The position numbers were made by a program, and so were the translations under genes. A DNA stretch of 64,000 nucleotides from a virus: IMG/VR virus record IMGVR_UViG_3300044984_002503, positions 1-64,000 of that record, one strand, 5' to 3'. Below are positions 1 to 21,470 of this stretch, piece after piece. The notes beneath the pieces are model-generated. The model was not told where the DNA came from. It saw only the letters and a list, made by a program, of their open reading frames with translations, and ran no database searches. The stretch's first letter is position 1, and each line of letters starts with the position of its first letter.

Positions 1-720
1 TACCTGAAGTTCCTGAAGAACCATCCGTACCTGAAGTTCCTGAACTACCATCCGTACCTGAAGTTCCTGATGAACCATCTGTTCCGCTAGTACCTGAAGT
101 TCCTGAAGAACCATCTGTTCCGCTAGTTCCTGAAGTTCCGTCTGTTCCGCTAGTTCCTGAACTACCATCCGTACCTGAAGTTCCTGAAGAACCATCTGTT
201 CCGCTAGTACCTGAAGTTCCTGAAGTTCCATCCGTACCTGAAGTACCGCTTGAACCATCTGTTCCGCTAGTTCCTGAAGAACCATCTGTTCCGCTAGTTC
301 CTGAAGTTCCGTCTGTTCCGCTAGTTCCGTCTGTTCCGCTAGTTCCTGAACTACCATCCGTACCTGAAGTTCCTGAAGAACCATCTGTTCCGCTAGTACC
401 TGAAGTTCCTGAAGAACCATCTGTACCTGAAGTTCCTGAAGAACCATCCGTACCTGAAGTTCCTGAACTACCATCCGTACCTGAAGTTCCTGATGAACCA
501 TCTGTTCCGCTAGTACCTGAAGTTCCTGAAGAACCATCTGTTCCGCTAGTACCTGAAGTTCCTGATGAACCATCTGTTCCGCTAGTTCCTGATGAACCAT
601 CTGTACCTGAAGTTCCGCTTGAACCATCTGTTCCACTAGTACCTGATGAACCATCAGTTCCACTAGTACCTGAAGTACCATCTGTTCCACTAGTACCTGA
701 AGTACCACTTGACCCAGCGG
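1..720. repeat. Tandem repeat array encoding collagen-like G-X-Y triplets
   Basis: Short direct repeats (9-27 bases, coding GTS/GTD/GSS) fill this interval, with alternating synonymous and near-synonymous variants. The repeats are in frame with the minus-strand gene and have no unique spacers, so this is coding low complexity and not a CRISPR array. Such arrays can expand or contract by recombination or slippage. Confidence 0.85.
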
Positions 721-1591
721 TTCCCGTTCCTCCTGTAAAATTAATTGTTATATTACCACCTCCATTATTAATAACGGAAGCACCTGAAAATGTCATACCT
801 GTAACATTTGAGACTGTTACACCTGACGTGGCATCATAAACGGTAAGAGGATTACCTCCACCACTTGTAAACCCTGTTATATCAATACTAGAACCTCCTG
901 CACTATTAAGTGATAGTGTTTGTGACCCACTATTATATGTTCCACCCGTAATTGGTGCGGTAAATCCTGAAATTGTTATTGTACCACCAGAACTATTGTA
1001 TAAATCTAAATCAGATGTCCCTGAATAATAAGTTCCACCTGTGATTTGAACGTCAGTACCCCAAAATATTTGCCATCTTGCATCATTTTTTGTGACACCA
1101 CCAACACCTTCAATAGTTGAGGCTGTCCAAGCATTAATAAATGTTGTTCCTTCAGTGGTGTCGTTATAAACCTCATAACCATTACCAGTATCTATAACTG
1201 ACCCTACCGCTTCTGCCGCATCCCACATCGCAGTAAATCCTGTCATAGTATATTGATATACTGTGTCAGTTTCCTGAACATAAACTTGCATACCTAATCT
1301 TCTACGACCACTAGAAATACCGTCATTATTAAGATTTAAAATATTAAAATAATCAAATGGAACATTATAATAAAAACTTATTGGAGTTGTATTTCCTGAA
1401 TATTCAACCAATCCACCATCAATTAATGTTTGAGGAGGAATTATCCAATTTAAATTGGATAAATAAAATACCTCCATGTAACCACCAATACCAAGGACGC
1501 TAAAATTAGTTCCATCGGTACTAATTCTGGTTACCGAATCGGGGGCTTGTAAAATGGTGGTCGAAATTGGATTTTTATAATTAAAGCTCAT
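1..1591 (-). CDS. Collagen-like tail fibre/adhesin protein, 3' end beyond the window
   Basis: The frame is open from an ATG at 1589-1591 to position 1 without a stop, so the C-terminus lies outside the window. The first ~285 residues are a Ser/Thr/Gly/Asn-rich, beta-type sequence without an obvious family. From about position 720 down to 1 the protein becomes uninterrupted G-X-Y triplets (GTS, GTD and GSS units), i.e. a collagen-like rod of at least ~235 residues. Gly at every third position is characteristic of phage collagen-like fibre stalks, which trimerise. The gene is last in a run of tail genes, following the Thr/Pro-repeat protein with a 39-base gap. A distal fibre or adhesin role is inferred; the receptor-binding end is not visible. 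The 27-base repeat units are near identical, so array length may vary between isolates. Confidence 0.8.
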   Translation of the reverse strand, partial: MSFNYKNPISTTILQAPDSVTRISTDGTNFSVLGIGGYMEVFYLSNLNWIIPPQTLIDGGLVEYSGNTTPISFYYNVPFDYFNILNLNNDGISSGRRRLGMQVYVQETDTVYQYTMTGFTAMWDAAEAVGSVIDTGNGYEVYNDTTEGTTFINAWTASTIEGVGGVTKNDARWQIFWGTDVQITGGTYYSGTSDLDLYNSSGGTITISGFTAPITGGTYNSGSQTLSLNSAGGSSIDITGFTSGGGNPLTVYDATSGVTVSNVTGMTFSGASVINNGGGNITINFTGGTGTAGSSGTSGTSGTDGTSGTSGTDGSSGTSGTDGSSGTSGTDGSSGTSGTDGSSGTSGTSGTDGSSGTSGTSGTDGSSGTSGTDGSSGTSGTDGSSGTSGTDGSSGTSGTSGTDGSSGTSGTDGSSGTSGTDGTSGTDGTSGTSGTDGSSGTSGTDGSSGTSGTDGTSGTSGTSGTDGSSGTSGTDGSSGTSGTDGTSGTSGTDGSSGTSGTSGTDGSSGTSGTDGSSGTSGTDGSSGTSG

Positions 1592-1630: not shown

Positions 1631-3847
1631 TTATACTAAAGACCCTCCTTGGAAATACCAATTATTACCAAGATTATTAATGTTAAGACCTGACGCGGTT
1701 TTTGTTGTATAAACTCTATATGTTCCTGCCGGTATATTTGTTGACCCACTATAATTAACAACTAAATTATTAGTTACGGCATTAACAACTGTGTCGGTTA
1801 ATGGCGGATTTGAACTACCGTTTTTAATGGTTGAATATTTTTGTCCGTTTGTCGCACCTGTTGCAACTATCCATGTATACCAAGCAATCTCACCTGAAGG
1901 AACTGTAGTGTTTGGAACTTGAATTGTTTGGAATTTGTAAGCAGTAATTGTATTACCCCATACGTCAACCCCACCAGATGTTGTTGATATTGGGGCAGTA
2001 AATATTGCAGGTTCACTAACACCCCAACCACTATAAGCGATATATGCGTTCATTTGAGCATCAAATGTTGCTTGGACAGTATTAGTCACGTTATTAATAT
2101 TAAATCCTCTAAATGCACTTCCTTGAGCCGCCATATAATTATTTAAGGCCGTTCTAAGTGTTGCATCACTTCGGTCAATAAACAAGTATGCGGTTAATCC
2201 TGGAGGTGTTGTTGAAGGTGTTGGTGTCATAGTTGTCGTATTAGTTGGTGTTTGTGTTGTTGTATTAGTTGGTGTTGCCGTATTGGTTGGTGTTTGACTT
2301 TGTGTTGGAGTTGTAGTATTTGTTGGCGTAGCAGTTTGACTTGGGGTGGCAGTTTGACTTGGTGTAGCGGTTTGAGTAGCCGTTTGACTTGGAGTTGCTG
2401 TTTGACTTGGAGTTGCTGTTTGACTTGGCGTAGCGGTTTGACTCGGAGTAGCGGTTTGACTCGGAGTAGCGGTTTGAGTTGCAGTTTGACTTGGCGTAGC
2501 AGTTTGACTTGGCGTAGCAGTTTGACTTGGCGTTGCCGTTTGACTTGGACTCGCAGTTTGACTTGGACTCGCAGTTTGACTTGGTGTTGAGGTTTGACTT
2601 GGACTCGCAGTTTGACTTGGTGTTGCAGTTTGACTTGGTGTTGATGTTTGACTTGGCGTAGCAGTATTAGTCGGCGTCTCACTATTAGTTGGAGTTTGAG
2701 TTGGAGTCGCAGTTGAAGTAGTAGTCGTTGTAGGTGTCTGACTTTGAGTTTGAGTCGCAGTTTGCGTTGCAGTTTGAGTTGGAGTTTCTGTTGGAGTTTC
2801 TGTTGAAGTTTGAGTTGGTGTTTGAGTTTGAGTTGGTGTCTCTGTATTTGTTGCAGTTTGAGTTTGAGTTGGTGTCTCTGTATTAGTTTGAGTTGGGGTT
2901 TGAGTTGGGGTCTCCGTTTGACTTGGCGTAGCAGTTTGAGTTGGAGTTTCTGTTGGAGTTTCTGTTGTAGTAGGTGTTTGAGTTTCAGTCATAGTAGGTG
3001 TTGCACCTATAGTAACTGAAGGAGTTGGTGTCATTGTTTCGGTTGGTGTTGGAGTTTCCGTTGAAGTTTGAGTTGGAGTTTCTGTTGAAGTTTGAGTTGG
3101 TGTTTGAGTTTGAGTCGGAGTTTCTGTATTTGTCGCAGTTTGAGTTTGTGTAGGTGTTTCTGTATTAGTTGGCGTAGCGGTTTGACTTGGCGTAGCGGTT
3201 TGAGTTGGTGTTTGAGTTTGAGTCTCCGTTTGACTTGGCGTAGCAGTTTGAGTTGGAGTTTCTGTTGGAGTTGGTGTCTCTGTATTAGTTGGAGTTGCGG
3301 TATTAGTTGGCGTAGCAGTATTAGTCGGAGTTTCAGTCGGTGTTGGTGTCTCTGTATTAGTTGGAGTTGCGGTATTAGTTGGAGTTGCGGTATTAGTTGG
3401 CGTAGCCGTATTAGTTGGCGTAGCCGTATTAGTCGGAGTTTGAGTTTGAGTTTGAGTTGGCGTAGGTGTTTGAGTTTCAGTCGATGTAGGTGTTGCACCT
3501 ATAGTAACTGAAGGAGTTGGTGTCATTGTTTCGGTTGGTGTTGAAGTTGGTGTTGAAGTTGGTGTTGAAGTAGAAGACGGAGGAGTAGTTGGTGTATTTG
3601 TTGGAGTAATTGTTGGTGTTGATGTAGCACAATCTAATGGGAGAATAACACCCATAAGCATGTTATTTCTTGTCACCGCAGAATAAATTAATGTAGTGTC
3701 TACATATACATTAAATGGTCCTAAAGCATTTGAATTTGACGCTAATTTTACAATATATGAGGTACAACCTGCTACTGTTAATTGTTGTTCAATTTCAGCT
3801 GCACATCCAGGGGCGTTATTTGTTACAATTATTGTGTATATGGACAT
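1631..3847 (-). CDS. Thr/Pro tandem-repeat (mucin-like) tail fibre protein
   Basis: This 738-aa protein has three parts. Residues 1-~75 form a small N-terminal domain with a few cysteines, ending in LPLDC; it resembles the C-terminal half of the neighbouring 102-aa protein, which also ends its beta region in LDC. Residues ~76-545 are almost entirely Thr, Pro, Ser, Gln, Asn and Ala in six-residue units such as [12 protein letters not shown] and TPTQT. Residues ~546-738 form a globular C-terminal domain rich in Asn, Tyr and Thr. The layout (anchor, extended stalk, globular tip) suggests a fibre whose tip may bind a host surface ligand. The stalk is rich in potential O-glycosylation residues. 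A TATTTAT box lies just upstream. The function is inferred from architecture and position, not from a recognised family. Confidence 0.75.
2210..3590. repeat. 18-base-type tandem repeats encoding the Thr/Pro stalk
   Basis: The interval consists of tandem near-identical units coding [18 protein letters not shown] and related hexapeptides on the minus strand. Two longer blocks (around 2985-3050 and 3470-3530) repeat almost the same passage, including a shared [13 protein letters not shown] peptide, which suggests a segmental duplication inside the array. Confidence 0.85.
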
Positions 3848-3934: not shown

Positions 3935-4243
3935 TTATTCAATAACCATATTAACAACACATGATGCTAATTCAATAGTAATTAAGAAAGTACATCCGAA
4001 TGTACAATCCAAAACTTTAAAAACTTCACAATTATTATTATCAGTTAATGTCAAAACAATTTGAGGCGCTGATTGGAAAATTGATGGTATTGTAGTATTG
4101 TATTCAACAACAGGAGGAACCGCACCACTAATAGTACCTAACAAAGTTTGATAATTAAGATAAATGTCTGATATAAAGACACTAATTGGGTAGGCAGTAC
4201 TACCAGATATTTCGGTTATTCTTACTTGGGTCATGATAAACAC
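3935..4243 (-). CDS. Small tail/baseplate-associated protein, unknown family
   Basis: This 102-aa, beta-rich protein has cysteines near the C-terminus (a CEVF..LDCTFGC pattern). Its start overlaps the end of the upstream SprB-repeat gene by 13 bases, so the two are probably translationally coupled. Its C-terminal half resembles the N-terminal domain of the following Thr/Pro-repeat protein, suggesting a related fold or shared attachment role. I recognise no family. The position among tail fibre genes suggests a connector or fibre accessory. Confidence 0.6.
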   Translation of the reverse strand: MFIMTQVRITEISGSTAYPISVFISDIYLNYQTLLGTISGAVPPVVEYNTTIPSIFQSAPQIVLTLTDNNNCEVFKVLDCTFGCTFLITIELASCVVNMVIE

Positions 4244-6366
4244 ATTATATCGTAAACAATTATCAAATCAATAATAATTTCTTGACCCTCTAAAGATGTA
4301 TTATCTCTACTAGTTTCAATAGTTATTTGATTATCAAGAGCATCAATACTAACATTACCAACTCCAGGAACACTTAATAATAATTGTCTAAGGGCATCGT
4401 AATATAAATTATCAGTAGGTACCTGAACTAATGTTGTTCCTGTAAAGAAAGTTTGACTTGTTGTTAATCCTGCAGGATTAACTGAAACTTTCACAGTAAA
4501 TGTTGCATTAACTAAATCACAATTTGTATTTCCTGATGTTAAGTCAAAATAACCCTCATTCAACATTTGTAATAATCCAAACTTAGTAGGTGATGAAACT
4601 CTAAATATTTCTTCGCCCATAACATAAGTTTGATATGAAACATAATTTTGATTACATGTGATTGTTGCAGTTCTTTTTAAAGAACATCCGTTATTATCTA
4701 CTACGGTTAAACTATATGTTCCTCCTGTCAACCCTGAAACTTGAATTTGTTGAGGTTCGTTAGGAATATTATCAGACCAATTAAAGTTAAATGGTGGTTC
4801 ACCTGATGTAATAAAGGCTGTTATTTGCCCACTATTTCCACTACCACAAGAAGTACTATACAATGAAAAATCTAATTTTTGACTAAATGGTATCAACACA
4901 TTTTTTGTTTGAACACATCCATCAGCGTCGGTAACCGTTACAACATGACTTCCGGCAGTTAAATTATTAAATGTTACTGCGCTTAAGTTAGTATCAATAA
5001 TGTTATACAATCCATCAATAGAATAGTCTAATGGTAATGTGCTTCCTGTTGTTGTGTATATTTTTATTTTTCCATTATTTTGATTACATGATGTTGAGGT
5101 AACTTCCGTAGAAATTGTATATTTGTTTTGAGCAACAATTGTAATTTCTTGTATATTAGAACACCCTGTTGAATCTGCAACAGCTACAGTATACGTTCCC
5201 GAAGATAGCCCGTCAAAAACATATGTTGTTTGAGAATTACTAACATTTAATGTGTTACCGTTAGGAGAAATTAAAGTATATGTATAAGGTAAACTTCCTC
5301 CAACAACAGAAATTTGAATTTGACCATTAACACTTGAACATGTTGAATTTTGACTAGTTACAGAGACAGAGGTTATTCCTCCAGGTGTTGCCAATGTTGT
5401 ACCCACAGATGATTGACAATATGCCGCGTCTGTAACTTGAAATTGATAGTTACCTGCAGTTAAACCTGAAATAGTATAACTTTGAGAATAGGAAACCTCA
5501 ACATTTCCTGTTGAAGCCGAGTAATAATATGGCGCAGTACCTCCTGTTAAAGTTACGGTAATAACTCCATTACTTTGGAGACAACTTGGTGCTGTAGATG
5601 TTACTAAAGCAAATCCAACTGGGTCAACATTTTCAAGGTATGCCGATTTTGTAATATCACACCCTAATGAATCCGTAACCTGAACAGAGTAATTACCCAT
5701 AGTTAATCCAGTAATAGTACTTCCTGTTTGTCCATCACTCCAAAGATATTGATATGGTGATATTCCTGTTTGACCCGTCACTATTATTTTACCAATTGGT
5801 GAACCTCCACAACTTGAATTTGGGACTACATATAAACCATAGTCAAACTCATTTGAATTATTTACAATAAAACTTTGGCTCAACCCAGTGCAACCTCCTA
5901 AATCAAGAGCTTCTATGGAATAAGTACTGGCACTTAAATTACTAAAGGTAAAGCTATCAGTATTTGTAGAACCCGAATTAAGAAAATTATTGTTTGAATC
6001 AAATAAATAAAAAATTGTTGATGAGTATATTGATGTTGACCCAACCGTAACAAAACCATTAGGTAGATTACATGTTGTATTGTTTACTGATGTTATTGAA
6101 GTACAAACCCCACTAGACACAGGAATGTTTATGTAAAATTCTGAGTTGGTAGGTAATGTACTATCATTTACCCTAGCAGCATATGTTGATGCAGATAAAT
6201 TTGTAACAGTAGAGGCGTTTGTCGTAACAACATCAACTTGAGTTAATGGTGATTGCCATTGCACTGTATAAGGTTCTGTCCCACCTGTTAAAAACAGGCT
6301 TATAATCCCCGCATTTGTGTTAGAACAATCCCCTGTTACCGCAATACTATAATTGAATGATGCCAT
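4231..6366 (-). CDS. Tail adhesin with about seven SprB-type repeats
   Basis: The 711-aa protein has roughly seven repeats of ~70 residues across residues 1-~555. Each follows the pattern Cys, then G-I-I/V-T-V, then GGT.PYTY.W, then ..GL.AGTY.V.VTD..GC. That pattern is the SprB repeat known from the gliding adhesin SprB and other large cell-surface proteins of Bacteroidota. Residues ~560-711 are different and likely anchor the protein to the particle. The start overlaps the upstream baseplate gene by 20 bases and the end overlaps the 102-aa gene by 13, so it belongs to the tail operon. A role in adsorption to a Bacteroidota surface is inferred. No enzymatic motif is visible. Confidence 0.75.
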   Translation of the reverse strand: MASFNYSIAVTGDCSNTNAGIISLFLTGGTEPYTVQWQSPLTQVDVVTTNASTVTNLSASTYAARVNDSTLPTNSEFYINIPVSSGVCTSITSVNNTTCNLPNGFVTVGSTSIYSSTIFYLFDSNNNFLNSGSTNTDSFTFSNLSASTYSIEALDLGGCTGLSQSFIVNNSNEFDYGLYVVPNSSCGGSPIGKIIVTGQTGISPYQYLWSDGQTGSTITGLTMGNYSVQVTDSLGCDITKSAYLENVDPVGFALVTSTAPSCLQSNGVITVTLTGGTAPYYYSASTGNVEVSYSQSYTISGLTAGNYQFQVTDAAYCQSSVGTTLATPGGITSVSVTSQNSTCSSVNGQIQISVVGGSLPYTYTLISPNGNTLNVSNSQTTYVFDGLSSGTYTVAVADSTGCSNIQEITIVAQNKYTISTEVTSTSCNQNNGKIKIYTTTGSTLPLDYSIDGLYNIIDTNLSAVTFNNLTAGSHVVTVTDADGCVQTKNVLIPFSQKLDFSLYSTSCGSGNSGQITAFITSGEPPFNFNWSDNIPNEPQQIQVSGLTGGTYSLTVVDNNGCSLKRTATITCNQNYVSYQTYVMGEEIFRVSSPTKFGLLQMLNEGYFDLTSGNTNCDLVNATFTVKVSVNPAGLTTSQTFFTGTTLVQVPTDNLYYDALRQLLLSVPGVGNVSIDALDNQITIETSRDNTSLEGQEIIIDLIIVYDIMCLS

Positions 6367-9300
6367 TTGATATATCTTTTTTGTTAGGTGTGCAGTTTAT
6401 GCTAATGTTTATTCCTGAATTTAAAGTTAATGTTTCCCCAAAGTTTCTTTCGGTACAAGTTAAACTTGTAATTGTTAAAAAACTACCATCTAATAAATAA
6501 TTAAACCCATAATCATATAGATTAGGTAAATATAAAATAAGGGCATTTCTCCAATCATCATTTGTTGGGACATCCGTTAACCCATACCCCGTATAAAACA
6601 ACTCTTGTATAATAATATCACCATCTATTTGTAAATCAACATACCAATTACTTTCAACCGAATTTTGGGTACAATTACCTAATGTTAACCCACTTGATGA
6701 TAACATATCATTTAATCTATTTGATAAGATACTACTAAAATTACTAACCTCAATATCACCATTCCTCCATGGATATATGAAGAAATCCACGGATTCTGTT
6801 GCACAGGTATAATCAAAAATATTTGATATGATATAACACGGTTTAACAGGTACTGGTACAAATTCACATCCTCTTTGTCTTCTATAAACAAATTTTTGTT
6901 TTTGTAATACTGAGTTTTCAAATTTAACTCCCGTATTCCAAATAGTTGTTGCAGGAACCATTTGTTCCACTAACTTCATCCAATATGGCCCTATACCGTT
7001 TACATAATCAATTAATTTTTGATAAGTGTATTTGTTATTTGGTAATCCAACGGTTTGTTCAGATTCAATATATTTCCACCATATAGATTGTAATGTTGGA
7101 TATCCTCCTGTTTTACCGTCAGTAATATATTGTCTATTTCTTACATTAATCATGTTTTGCCAAAATGTTTGTGAGAACTCAAAAAATGTTTTCTTTTTTG
7201 GTTCAGGATTAACGTAAGTCCAATCCACACCTCCAGGTACAGGGTACCCTACCGTTAACCCTGATTCAGGTATAGGATAATCATATCTCCTTGATTGGTC
7301 CCAAACATCATATACAAGTCCTTGTGAAGGATTTAAAAATAAATCAACATTTTTAACATTTAATACAAGTTTTTCATTATCAACATAATAATATGCATTA
7401 TAATCTGCATTTATAGAAACTCTAATTTTATTATCTTCTTCTAACCATGATTTATTATTATCAACTACTTTAGTCAATTTAAAACCTTCAGTCATATATG
7501 GGAAATCTCTAAACCTATTTAAATATGGTTGTCCATAACTAAATGGTGTTAATTTAGTTTGAAAATCATAGTTTTGACCCGTATAAACATTTCCTGTAAT
7601 TACCACCTCATCAGGACTTCTATGTTGAGGTGTTGATTCGTACCAACCAGAACCTAATTGGAAAAAATAATTGTCAGTATTTAAAGGTGCTGACGGATAA
7701 CCTAAATCATCAATAGGATAATCACTTAATTTAACATTAACATCTTGGTAACTTTTATTTGAGGTATAACCACTATAGAAATCACCTTTAATTTTATAAG
7801 TTTGTCCCGGCAAATACGAAGGAGTATCTTGAACATATGTTCCTCCTGAGATTTTCATCCATTGAGTATAGAATTGGTCTAAATTAATTCTTTGGTCGGC
7901 AAGATAAATATGTTCGTTAAATTCAACCAATGAATCAGGAGCCCCAATTAGTCTCATCATAAATTCAATAGACCTTCTTGTTCCTTTTGATTTAAAAAGG
8001 TAAGCCGCGTTTAGAATTAAATTTCTATAGAATGCATAGTTTAATTCTGTTGGAGTAAGAGCTCTTGCATATCCAGGATATGTTGGGGTACTTGTATTAC
8101 CAAATACCGAACTTAAGAAGTCTTCATTTGTTATTGGCGAAAAGTTTGAAGACCAACCTAAAGTTCTCGCAAGATTTACCAACAATTCTGATGGTATATC
8201 ATTTGAAGGATTATAATTAACCGAATTCATATAAGCCAAAGCATCAATAAATTGTTTTACTTGGTCAAAACTTCTACCATAGATTTGAAATATTTTTTCA
8301 ACTTTTTGTCCTCGTGTGTCAAACTCTTTTAACGAGTCCGTAACTAAAAATCTTGATAATAAATTAGTTTTAAATGAATCTAAATTTTGCGCAATAATTT
8401 CTAACTGAGACAAGTAATCATCAAACAAATATGACCTAATGTCTAAGTTCCAATTTCCATCTTTTGGCCAAGTTACTTGTTGATAGTCAGTATAAAATTG
8501 TCCATCTTCATTTTGTTGTGGTACTTGGAAAGTCGCCGTATATTCAGGTCTTACTAAACGATTTAATAAAAATTTCTCAACCTCATCAAAGTTTTCCGCA
8601 AATACTTTATCCGTAATAAAATCATTTAATCTTATCTGATATTGTTCATTAATTGTTGTTGCTGTATCTCCAAAAGGCGCCCCTGAAACATAAAACTCTA
8701 TGTAACCCGTATTTAAATTTTCCGAAGGATTAAATGACATTACATTGTATATGTTATCATTAATACTAATACAATAATCCAAATAACTATTATACAAATT
8801 TCTATATGGTGACACAATTATCTCTCTAAGTGACAAGTTAGTTGCAGCACTAATTGAATAATCAATATCAAAAGGATTATTAATCCTATCAACATTAACT
8901 TTAAAATATGTTTCATCAGTTGTTAAATCATAAGATATGTCATATGCTGTTGGCCCTGTAGTAAAATCTAAATTGGTGTATAATACATCTAATCCCGCAG
9001 GGAAATTATGGATTATATGTGTAACCGAAACTTGGAATCTTTTACTTAAAGACCCATACATTGAAAAGTTTAAAACTTGGGATACATCATAGTTTGGATA
9101 AACTCTAAATTGAGTCGCCATTATTCTACGGCTTTCCGTTAAATCTCCAATATCTAAATCATCTAAATTAATTGGTTCCGAAAAAGCTCCAACCGTAAAA
9201 GTTCTATTAACTTTTTCAACAATAGAAGTTGTGAACTCAAAATTACCTTGCGTAAGACCTCCACCCTCAACAGTTTGTAATCCTACAATGTTGTCTGAGA

Positions 9301-9367
9301 AAGTCCCCGCACCACTACCAGGTCTTGGGGGATAAAAATATTTTGTGCTCTTTTGTGTTATTGCCAT
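6347..9367 (-). CDS. Large baseplate protein with a phage tail protein I-like region
   Basis: In this 1006-aa protein, residues ~395-480 contain the pattern LARTLGW, then YRNLILNAAYLFKSKGT, then RSIEFMMRLIG. This is the hallmark of the P2 gpI-type baseplate family that links the wedge to the fibres. The rest is aromatic-rich beta structure, including several PYxxxYNSY-like stretches, and the C-terminal ~130 residues are Cys-containing. It follows the 302-aa gene with a one-base stop/start overlap and precedes the SprB-repeat gene. A peripheral baseplate protein that holds the fibres is the most likely role. It is far longer than P2 gpI (about 175 aa), so most of it is additional domain. Confidence 0.6.
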   Translation of the reverse strand: MAITQKSTKYFYPPRPGSGAGTFSDNIVGLQTVEGGGLTQGNFEFTTSIVEKVNRTFTVGAFSEPINLDDLDIGDLTESRRIMATQFRVYPNYDVSQVLNFSMYGSLSKRFQVSVTHIIHNFPAGLDVLYTNLDFTTGPTAYDISYDLTTDETYFKVNVDRINNPFDIDYSISAATNLSLREIIVSPYRNLYNSYLDYCISINDNIYNVMSFNPSENLNTGYIEFYVSGAPFGDTATTINEQYQIRLNDFITDKVFAENFDEVEKFLLNRLVRPEYTATFQVPQQNEDGQFYTDYQQVTWPKDGNWNLDIRSYLFDDYLSQLEIIAQNLDSFKTNLLSRFLVTDSLKEFDTRGQKVEKIFQIYGRSFDQVKQFIDALAYMNSVNYNPSNDIPSELLVNLARTLGWSSNFSPITNEDFLSSVFGNTSTPTYPGYARALTPTELNYAFYRNLILNAAYLFKSKGTRRSIEFMMRLIGAPDSLVEFNEHIYLADQRINLDQFYTQWMKISGGTYVQDTPSYLPGQTYKIKGDFYSGYTSNKSYQDVNVKLSDYPIDDLGYPSAPLNTDNYFFQLGSGWYESTPQHRSPDEVVITGNVYTGQNYDFQTKLTPFSYGQPYLNRFRDFPYMTEGFKLTKVVDNNKSWLEEDNKIRVSINADYNAYYYVDNEKLVLNVKNVDLFLNPSQGLVYDVWDQSRRYDYPIPESGLTVGYPVPGGVDWTYVNPEPKKKTFFEFSQTFWQNMINVRNRQYITDGKTGGYPTLQSIWWKYIESEQTVGLPNNKYTYQKLIDYVNGIGPYWMKLVEQMVPATTIWNTGVKFENSVLQKQKFVYRRQRGCEFVPVPVKPCYIISNIFDYTCATESVDFFIYPWRNGDIEVSNFSSILSNRLNDMLSSSGLTLGNCTQNSVESNWYVDLQIDGDIIIQELFYTGYGLTDVPTNDDWRNALILYLPNLYDYGFNYLLDGSFLTITSLTCTERNFGETLTLNSGINISINCTPNKKDISNGIIQL

Positions 9368-19155: not shown

Positions 19156-20994
19156 TTATGAGAAGGTAACAGATTGGAAATTTTTAACAGATACTCGGAT
19201 ATCTTTATTAGGATATCTAATTTGATAAACTTGTGAAGGTTGTGCAAAAATTGTATCATCTACAGGTGCGATTTCTTTAGTTTCAGGGTCCGAATATTGC
19301 ATTGATGTTTCTGCTGATGAATATTGCCCACCAACATTATTATAAACATTAAGTCCTGCAACTGTTAATACACCATTTTGGTTTTGAACAATACTTTTAA
19401 TTTCTGACAAATAAACATTTTGTCCTAATTGTCTTATTTGTGGATTAAAATATGTTGATATTTTATCAACGACATCTGCAATAATTTGTCCTGAATTTTG
19501 TGCAGAGTCTAAAACAATTTGTACATCCACACTAAGGTCAATAACTTCAGCCGTTAATATTGAAATGTAATCATTCATCATTCTATAATTTGACAAGTAT
19601 GTTGCAACATTTTGTCTTAATGTGTCTGATACAATGTTAGTTAATTTACCTGAAGTATCATATGACAATAATTGAATTAATATTTTATTATTATTTTCTG
19701 TAATTGCTACTTTCGCAGGTGCCCCAAATTCTGCCGGCATATTTCTAATTATCGCCTCATAATCTTGAACTGTAACAGCTCTTTTTTGTGCTGCGAAGTT
19801 AAATGAAACATAATTTCGTATTTCTTCTAATGATGGAATACCCGCGCCACCAATAGCTGCGGTAACATTATTACATCTTAACGAGTTAACAACTGAAGAG
19901 TTTGTTAATTCTGATGGTCCATTAACATAAAACGAAACGGTACCGATTTGAGTAATTACATTTGTCCCTAAATTTGTTGCTAATCCACCACCAACTCTAT
20001 ATTGTATGAATAATGTTGAGTTCGGGATTAATGCAGAACCTAATGAAAAGTTATTAGAATATCTTTGTAAGTCTAATGTTGCACCCACCGTTGTAAATTG
20101 ATTTAACGCGTCTTGGGCTGTATTAGTTCCTCCACCAAAAGTCATTTTTTTAAATCCTTCAGGCGTATACTCTGTCATAAATCTATTTTGTGTTTGAATA
20201 TATCTACCAACTTTAATCCCTGGTTGGTCAGAAACTTTTGTCGGGTCTTCAATAAAAACTCTATCTTCAGCCAAAGCGTCTACTTCATACCATTTATTTG
20301 ACACACCTAAAAATTCAGCTGCTGTCGGTATATTTGTATATTCAGTCCCACTTTTTAATAAAACACTTGTAATCCCTAAAACGTTTTTTTCAGGTAAGAA
20401 TAATTCAAAAAATGGTCTTACATCATTTGGCGTAATAACTCTTTTGAATACCTTAGTAATACCATTAACTACAAGTTCTCTTTTTGTTATTGTGTAATTA
20501 ATTAATACATTATTGGCGTTGAAATTAGGTATTTTAAGTCTGTTTGGAAAACCTTGAGCATTATATGGTGATGTAAAATCAATATCATAAATGTTTTCAA
20601 ATACAATACCCGCGCCTGTAATTTGTGAACCTCTTGTTAAAGTACCCAAATATCTTTCATCTTCTTTATCCCCAAAAGCAGGAACTGTAATAGAGAAATC
20701 AACTAAAGCAACCGAAGGTCTTTGACCCGGTAATTTTAATCCATAAGTTCTTGCAATATTGTAAATTGAAGACCTTTGTTGAGCGTATTGAAGAACTGTC
20801 TCTTGAATACTTCTATCTATGTGATAATGTAAGTTATCTGCTACGGCAGCATTTAAATCCAAGAACACAGAAAATACCGAAGCATCATTAAAGTCTTGTA
20901 TTAATTCAGGATAATAAGTTTTAACATAGTTTAATAACTCTGTTCTTATCCCCTGATAATCTCTAGTTGTATATGATATATTACGATTTGCCAT
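19156..20994 (-). CDS. 6: Baseplate wedge protein, T4 gp6-like (baseplate J family)
   Basis: This 612-aa protein is close to T4 gp6 (about 660 aa). The N-terminus reads MANRNISYTTRDYQGIRTEL, followed by YPELIQDFNDASVFSVFLDL and AAVADNLHYHIDR, the conserved start of gp6/baseplate J proteins. Residues ~385-460 contain the IRNYVSFNFAAQKRAVTVQDYEAII segment typical of baseplate J. In T4, gp6 forms the continuous ring of the inner baseplate together with gp25 and gp53. The gp25-like gene lies immediately upstream, five bases before this start, the same partnership as in T4. Confidence 0.85.
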   Translation of the reverse strand: MANRNISYTTRDYQGIRTELLNYVKTYYPELIQDFNDASVFSVFLDLNAAVADNLHYHIDRSIQETVLQYAQQRSSIYNIARTYGLKLPGQRPSVALVDFSITVPAFGDKEDERYLGTLTRGSQITGAGIVFENIYDIDFTSPYNAQGFPNRLKIPNFNANNVLINYTITKRELVVNGITKVFKRVITPNDVRPFFELFLPEKNVLGITSVLLKSGTEYTNIPTAAEFLGVSNKWYEVDALAEDRVFIEDPTKVSDQPGIKVGRYIQTQNRFMTEYTPEGFKKMTFGGGTNTAQDALNQFTTVGATLDLQRYSNNFSLGSALIPNSTLFIQYRVGGGLATNLGTNVITQIGTVSFYVNGPSELTNSSVVNSLRCNNVTAAIGGAGIPSLEEIRNYVSFNFAAQKRAVTVQDYEAIIRNMPAEFGAPAKVAITENNNKILIQLLSYDTSGKLTNIVSDTLRQNVATYLSNYRMMNDYISILTAEVIDLSVDVQIVLDSAQNSGQIIADVVDKISTYFNPQIRQLGQNVYLSEIKSIVQNQNGVLTVAGLNVYNNVGGQYSSAETSMQYSDPETKEIAPVDDTIFAQPSQVYQIRYPNKDIRVSVKNFQSVTFS

Positions 20995-20999
20995 CTATA

Positions 21000-21470
21000 T
21001 TAAATATTAATAATAACAAAATCACTTTGTGCAAAAGTGTTTTTATCTGTTGAGTAGTCTATTTTAATTTTAGCAGTATATTCTGAAGTTCCTTTACCAG
21101 GAAATCTATAGATTGGTGATTCACTACTACCGATAGAATTTTGTCCTGTTGCGATATCAACTTCTTCTTGAGGGTCTGCTGGTGTTATTGTTATATTATT
21201 TAATAATAAATTTGGCATATAATTTGAAACCGCTTCTCTAATGTCAGATTCAATTGCATCAAAAGTAAGACCATCAAATGGTTCAAATAAGAACTCATAT
21301 AACCTAGTACCAAAATCAGGTAGATAATATCTTGTACCTTTTCTTGTTAACAATAAATGGATTAAATCCGCCTTTACTTCTTGAGCTTCAAATTGAGTTA
21401 ATTCCAAATAATCTCCTCTTTTAGAATTTCTAAAAGGAAAATTAAGACCGTATGTTGTACCTGCTGCCAT
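21000..21470 (-). CDS. 25: Baseplate wedge protein, T4 gp25-like (GPW/gp25 family)
   Basis: This 156-aa protein has the family signature: an N-terminal strand, then VKADLIHLLLTRKGTRYYLPDFG, the conserved LLT..GTR...P.FG..L motif, then LYEFLFEPFD, and a C-terminal I..DIR.AV..Y.P segment. It resembles T4 gp25 (about 132 aa), which clamps sheath to baseplate. It opens the wedge operon, has a TATTTAT box ~30 bases upstream, and is separated from nrdA by a terminator. Confidence 0.88.
   Translation of the reverse strand: MAAGTTYGLNFPFRNSKRGDYLELTQFEAQEVKADLIHLLLTRKGTRYYLPDFGTRLYEFLFEPFDGLTFDAIESDIREAVSNYMPNLLLNNITITPADPQEEVDIATGQNSIGSSESPIYRFPGKGTSEYTAKIKIDYSTDKNTFAQSDFVIINI

Follow-up and report, generated by a model that had tools for sequence, protein, structure and literature searches.

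The window, a stretch of 64,000 nucleotides (positions 1 to 64,000 of the viral record IMGVR_UViG_3300044984_002503), carries on its minus strand an ORF at 4231-6366 that starts with ATG and encodes 711 residues, present as first described. Seven Cys-bounded repeats of 77-88 residues each tile residues 1-574 of the product, and a GG.PY / AGTY.V.VTD..GC pattern can be followed through them by eye and in the alignment, where C14, G20, L57 and D68 (repeat 1 numbering) are common to 7/7 repeats. The features of the locus are as follows, the repeats being delimited by alignment and by the bacterial-repeat profile described below.

1-1591, minus strand: collagen-like protein with GTSGTDG repeats, cut by the record end (sequence)
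1631-3847, minus strand: 738-aa protein with a long Thr/Pro linker (TPT, SQTAT) and a C-terminal globular region, candidate tip (ORF, relatives)
3935-4243, minus strand: protein of 102 aa whose gene overlaps the SprB gene at its end; in some relatives its homologues are fused parts of longer proteins (ORF, relatives)
4231-6366, minus strand: SprB-repeat protein, 711 aa, whole ORF including stop (ORF call, Pfam, relatives)
4234-4644, minus strand: C-terminal alpha/beta domain, residues 575-711, not SprB (AF2 secondary structure, hhalign)
4645-4878, minus strand: repeat 7, residues 497-574
4879-5124, minus strand: repeat 6, residues 415-496
5125-5379, minus strand: repeat 5, residues 330-414, with the best Pfam SprB stretch at 336-368 (also Pfam)
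5380-5619, minus strand: repeat 4, residues 250-329
5620-5850, minus strand: repeat 3, residues 173-249
5851-6102, minus strand: repeat 2, residues 89-172, which of the seven matches bacterial repeats least well
6103-6366, minus strand: repeat 1, residues 1-88
6347-9367, minus strand: conserved tail-region protein, 1006 aa, directly upstream of the SprB gene with a 20-nt overlap (ORF, synteny)
6386-6676, minus strand: residues about 898-994 of the 1006-aa protein, a domain aligned to the end domain of the SprB protein (hhalign)
19156-20994, minus strand: gp6/J-type baseplate wedge protein, which anchors the tail assignment (PHROGs and homologue searches)
21000-21470, minus strand: gp25-type baseplate protein (phmmer to T4 gp25, E=4e-12)

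On this strand the order runs from the gp25 homologue through the gp6/baseplate J homologue and six genes, the last of them the 1006-aa gene, to the SprB gene, which in turn opens a cassette continued downstream by the 102-aa, Thr/Pro-linker and collagen-like genes. The SprB gene is co-oriented with the baseplate genes, and the local order is kept in relatives. The assignment to the tail rests on this order downstream of the gp25 and gp6 homologues and on the gene being locked behind the 1006-aa gene; the position in a putative tail cassette supports the suggestion of the earlier note that this is a tail protein.

The 1006-aa protein itself had no match in Pfam, PHROGs or NCBIfam, and AF2 gave no usable fold for it (pLDDT 29). 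Its identification as a P2 gpI-like protein, considered on the strength of motifs, was dropped, as neither the three databases nor the AF2 model supported it. Its homologue is split into two ORFs in two contigs (431 + 500 aa in L045, 645 + 311 aa in L096) and is intact in contigs otherwise near-identical to L045; the splits are either assembly errors or frameshifts. In the 738-aa protein, the linker comprises several hundred Thr, Pro, Gln and Ser residues, and its length and sequence vary widely among relatives. Several further proteins encoded by these phages also have linkers of this Thr/Pro type, and the length of the collagen-like protein is highly variable in relatives, several copies also being cut by contig ends.

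Identity of the repeats and of the end domain

With the Pfam SprB model (PF13573) the 711-aa protein was matched in six stretches as tandem copies (E=2.6e-18), scoring 65.8 bits where the curated cut-off is 28 bits. A profile made from Bacteroidota repeats only matched all seven repeats (284 bits, E=3.6e-88, iE 5.8e-7 for the weakest); since the bacterial repeats behind it had been gathered with a profile of the phage repeats, which retrieves 793 bacterial repeats, the 284-bit test is not fully independent, while the Pfam test is. The Bacteroidota-repeat profile matched no other ORF in the 90-kb record and nothing in a 49-kb stretch of T4, Hoc included, or in a 49-kb stretch of a cultured Flavobacterium phage, and 0/500 shuffled versions of the 711-aa sequence reached E<1. 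Among other Ig-like families of Pfam, which were below or near their cut-offs, BiPBP_C scored 27.5 against a cut-off of 26.8 and the phage tip-J Ig model stayed below its own. PHROGs gave a match to Hoc-like head decoration (PHROG 3945, E=1.2e-9), of which the best stretch spans one repeat, and T4 Hoc was not matched by the phage-repeat profile. Against solved structures, the repeat profile found the neck-whisker protein gp24, Aureispira GhpA, RemZ, phage decoration proteins and Hoc, all weakly (E 2.5e-4 to 1.6e-3); because phage and bacterial Ig-like proteins were equally weak, these matches do not discriminate and were set aside as a guide to repeat identity, and a full-length profile of the SprB protein found nothing among PDB sequences at 0.01. 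The Ig-like fold is common, but on sequence the phage repeats group with SprB, and the proposal of about seven SprB-type repeats, rather than generic phage Ig-like domains, stands.

The SprB-type secreted adhesins of Bacteroidota share with the phage protein the repeat family and the Cys / GG.PY / AGTY.V.VTD pattern. They often contain far more repeats, together with signal peptides and T9SS/gliding C-termini, whereas the phage protein has seven repeats and its own end domain and is encoded in a phage tail cassette. No signal peptide was visible on inspection of its N-terminus (MASFNYSIAVTGDC), and none of Pfam's T9SS or gliding C-terminal domains exceeded its cut-off; this phage-encoded protein therefore differs from gliding adhesins of the SprB type, which are cell-encoded and carry both.

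An AF2 model built from 38 relatives shows seven beta-sandwich units followed by a C-terminal alpha/beta domain spanning residues 587-709, with a mean pLDDT of 82 and a pTM of 0.34, at which the relative arrangement of the repeats is unreliable. Between the end domain and residues about 898-994 of the 1006-aa neighbour there is a collinear alignment (hhalign P=2.4e-5, prob 76%), compared with P values of 0.24 and 0.48 for reversed controls and 0.07-0.83 for five other proteins of the cassette. This was seen with deeper alignments and missed with shallow ones, and suggests that the C-terminal domain is weakly homologous to the C-terminus of the 1006-aa protein. The end domain was absent from the ORFs of the Bacteroidota loci that were fetched. 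Both this distinct domain and the tips fused behind it in relatives had been overlooked in the first reading of the sequence.

In Foldseek searches the closest solved structure was the grappling-hook protein GhpA (PDB 9flp, 9fly, 9flw), the tandem beta-sandwich shaft of a surface appendage of Aureispira, a predatory member of the Bacteroidota. GhpA is a cellular protein with a chain of 5898 residues, and the overall TM-score is low because the inter-domain geometry differs or is not predicted. The closest viral match, over the full length and at 35% identity (E=1.4e-62), was a 714-aa protein of near-equal length from an uncultured Caudovirales phage, A0A6J5LD72 (UniProt/BFVD), already named 'SprB repeat' in UniProt; the name is apparently only automatic, and we found no analysis of its function, neighbourhood or host. 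Ig-like virion-associated proteins are likewise already known as a kind. Hoc, the T5 pb10-type decoration protein and gp24 display Ig-like modules on the virion, as is proposed here for the SprB protein, but their sequence similarity to it is weak and their gene location different. In the partly covered literature, no paper describing SprB repeats in phage virions was found.

Relatives, repeat evolution and host

Phages with the SprB protein form a large group from lake water. A profile scan with the protein gave 209 relatives, the best 80 of which were kept, and a separate scan was made with the conserved 302-aa gene. The protein measures 709-715 aa in 72 of these best 80. In the scan with the 302-aa gene, every contig reaching far enough has the SprB gene next after the 1006-aa gene, down to 44% identity of the SprB protein. 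Conservation declines along the cassette, from 81-100% for the 302-aa protein through 67-100% for the 1006-aa protein to 44-100% for the SprB protein, followed by the variable linker proteins. Most relatives stop at the conserved end domain, and a minority are longer (827-1133 aa) and carry extra, variable modules behind it, mostly after Thr/Pro linkers. One such module consists of leucine-rich repeats (E=1e-15); others resemble beta-propellers by eye, for which Pfam gave no confirmation.

A number of further features were noted in these genomes. Elsewhere in their genomes, larger relatives encode a second large protein that combines Thr/Pro linkers with weak SprB-like repeats (L246:5389-7878 (-), L247:5711-8200 (+) and L248:4784-7102 (-)) and adjoins a conserved protein starting with MAYIIKNTAGLINTRLTDVGRR or similar. 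In LR756502.1, a 642-kb 'uncultured phage' record, a 1670-aa protein (L030:12514-17526 (+)) combines 13 SprB-like repeats, counted by profile, with an apparent signal peptide and a C-terminus of the gliding type; it is either an adhesin genuinely carried by a phage or a piece of bacterial sequence within the record. Between the conserved 364- and 302-aa genes, some relatives have extra ORFs of about 210-280 aa (L168, L249:13138-13977, L051, L059, L203), and the Cys-rich start of one of these suggests homing endonucleases. In the present record, several genes at 64001-90128 (L028, L029) resemble sugar-transfer or nucleotide-sugar enzymes by eye, and their products might act on the Thr-rich linkers or on the surface of the host. 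Terminase (PF17289) was not found in five large relatives, nor were tRNAs in the record or in the stretches of relatives.

When 56 phage and 81 bacterial-type repeats were placed in one tree, the repeats of each of the seven positions grouped in a clade of their own (support 0.95-1.0), while the phage repeats as a whole did not form one. The distance between phage repeats is roughly that separating them from bacterial ones, whereas the bacterial repeats of one protein are more alike among themselves, and repeat number and order are fixed in nearly all relatives. The separate position clades, together with these distances, imply that the array is old. Over the whole protein dN/dS is about 0.08 (0.05-0.10 by domain), values that are approximate because dS is near saturation; the protein is under purifying selection, unlike a fast-evolving tip. 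The comparison with bacterial repeats, which the earlier note had called for, speaks against a recent borrowing of host modules or surface mimicry. It points to the seven-repeat array as an old, fixed structural part, acquired anciently or held by shared ancestry, the direction of any transfer being unproven.

The host is very probably a member of the Bacteroidota, and the hint to that effect taken from the repeats is strengthened by several other signals. Shine-Dalgarno-like 4-mers precede 5/58 genes here and 1/51 in stretches of relatives (two of which overlap), compared with 30/38 in the T4 stretch, and missing SD sequences are typical of Bacteroidetes (PMC6847099). The ribonucleotide reductase is nearest to those of Cellulophaga and Tenacibaculum phages, at about 40% identity versus about 30% for named phages of other hosts. 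Flavobacterium phages are among the gp6 matches, as is one Microcystis phage, and the DNA polymerase is nearest to those of Salinibacter and cyanobacterial phages. The 46 bacterial loci found with the SprB protein are in records named Bacteroidota or members thereof, bar one MAG labelled Sphingomonadales (L130); this one has a Bacteroidota-type adhesin with a protein end like those of Bacteroidota, and is probably a misnamed record. A search for the conserved 302-aa protein in 395 Bacteroidota genomes returned nothing and, lacking a positive control, is uninformative on the host. Ribosomal protein bS21 is encoded by two large relatives, as it is by freshwater huge phages of Bacteroidetes, whose genomes are very large (PMC9723584); the text of that study does not mention SprB. 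The cultured Flavobacterium phage immuto (NC_055915) has homologues of the gp25 and gp6 genes, and its fibre and spike genes follow gp6 in the same direction, which agrees with a tail role for the SprB gene here; no SprB repeats were detected in its 49-kb stretch.

Proposed role at the tail

The SprB protein would most likely be a conserved tail-fibre shaft or an adaptor for exchangeable tips, a reading to which its position, constraint, fixed length and fused variable modules lead. The seven SprB-type Ig-like domains would form an elongated, semi-rigid shaft, and the C-terminal alpha/beta domain, of a kind shared with the end of the neighbouring tail-region protein, may serve as an assembly or docking module. 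The variable parts contacting the receptor would then be the downstream Thr/Pro-linked and collagen-like proteins, or else the modules that in some relatives follow the C-terminal domain directly in the same chain. We accordingly consider it fairly probable that the protein is a conserved host-attachment part at the contractile-tail baseplate of freshwater T4-like Bacteroidota phages, with SprB shaft, docking end domain and variable tips. Against the shaft speak the Hoc-like match in PHROGs, the 76% probability at which the kinship of the end domain stands and the pLDDT of 29 for the neighbour. As to origin, it is conceivable, and we propose it only tentatively, that a bacterial adhesin array was anciently fused to a duplicated end domain of a phage tail protein, and that the resulting chimeric virion shaft was fixed in a widespread family of large Bacteroidota phages while tips (LRR, propeller, Thr/Pro-linked domains) were swapped behind it.

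It could also be that the repeats themselves are the receptor-binding part and bind host glycans or SprB-type filaments in a first, reversible adsorption. Large secreted proteins of the likely hosts do contain SprB repeats, and gliding adhesins have been discussed as phage receptors in flavobacteria (PMC13288928, PMC7345892). However, strong purifying selection in all repeats, with fixed number and order, is unlike what a host-range determinant would show, and the variable parts sit downstream or fused behind the end domain, which makes this role rather unlikely. Hoc-like decoration of the capsid, in which Ig-like domains borne by the head keep the particle close to cells or surfaces, would account for the PHROG match and for the weak hits of the profile on Hoc and on a phage decoration protein in the PDB (about 1e-3), but is improbable given that in relatives the gene is locked behind the tail-region gene and the baseplate wedge block, and that the repeat profile misses T4 Hoc while SprB scores far better.

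Sharing a repeat family with exported bacterial adhesins might further suggest surface mimicry, or a protein exported by the host and shown on the infected cell, for instance to block superinfection; with neither an evident export signal nor a T9SS/gliding C-terminus, and with the gene lying inside a structural cassette, we regard this as very improbable. Convergence of a generic phage Ig-like domain on SprB is the hardest to credit, for although the beta-sandwich fold is common and the structural matches to phage and bacterial proteins are equally weak, the bacterial-repeat profile separates this protein from everything in the T4 and Flavobacterium phage stretches, and the phage repeats in turn retrieve bacterial ones by the hundred.

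Read as a conserved shaft or adaptor, the SprB protein provides a marker for abundant, mostly uncultured lake phages of Bacteroidota, together with a testable model of how they attach to their hosts. It is also a concrete example of parts shared between a family of bacterial adhesin domains and a structural cassette of phages, and the fused tips mark the likely site at which host range is set.
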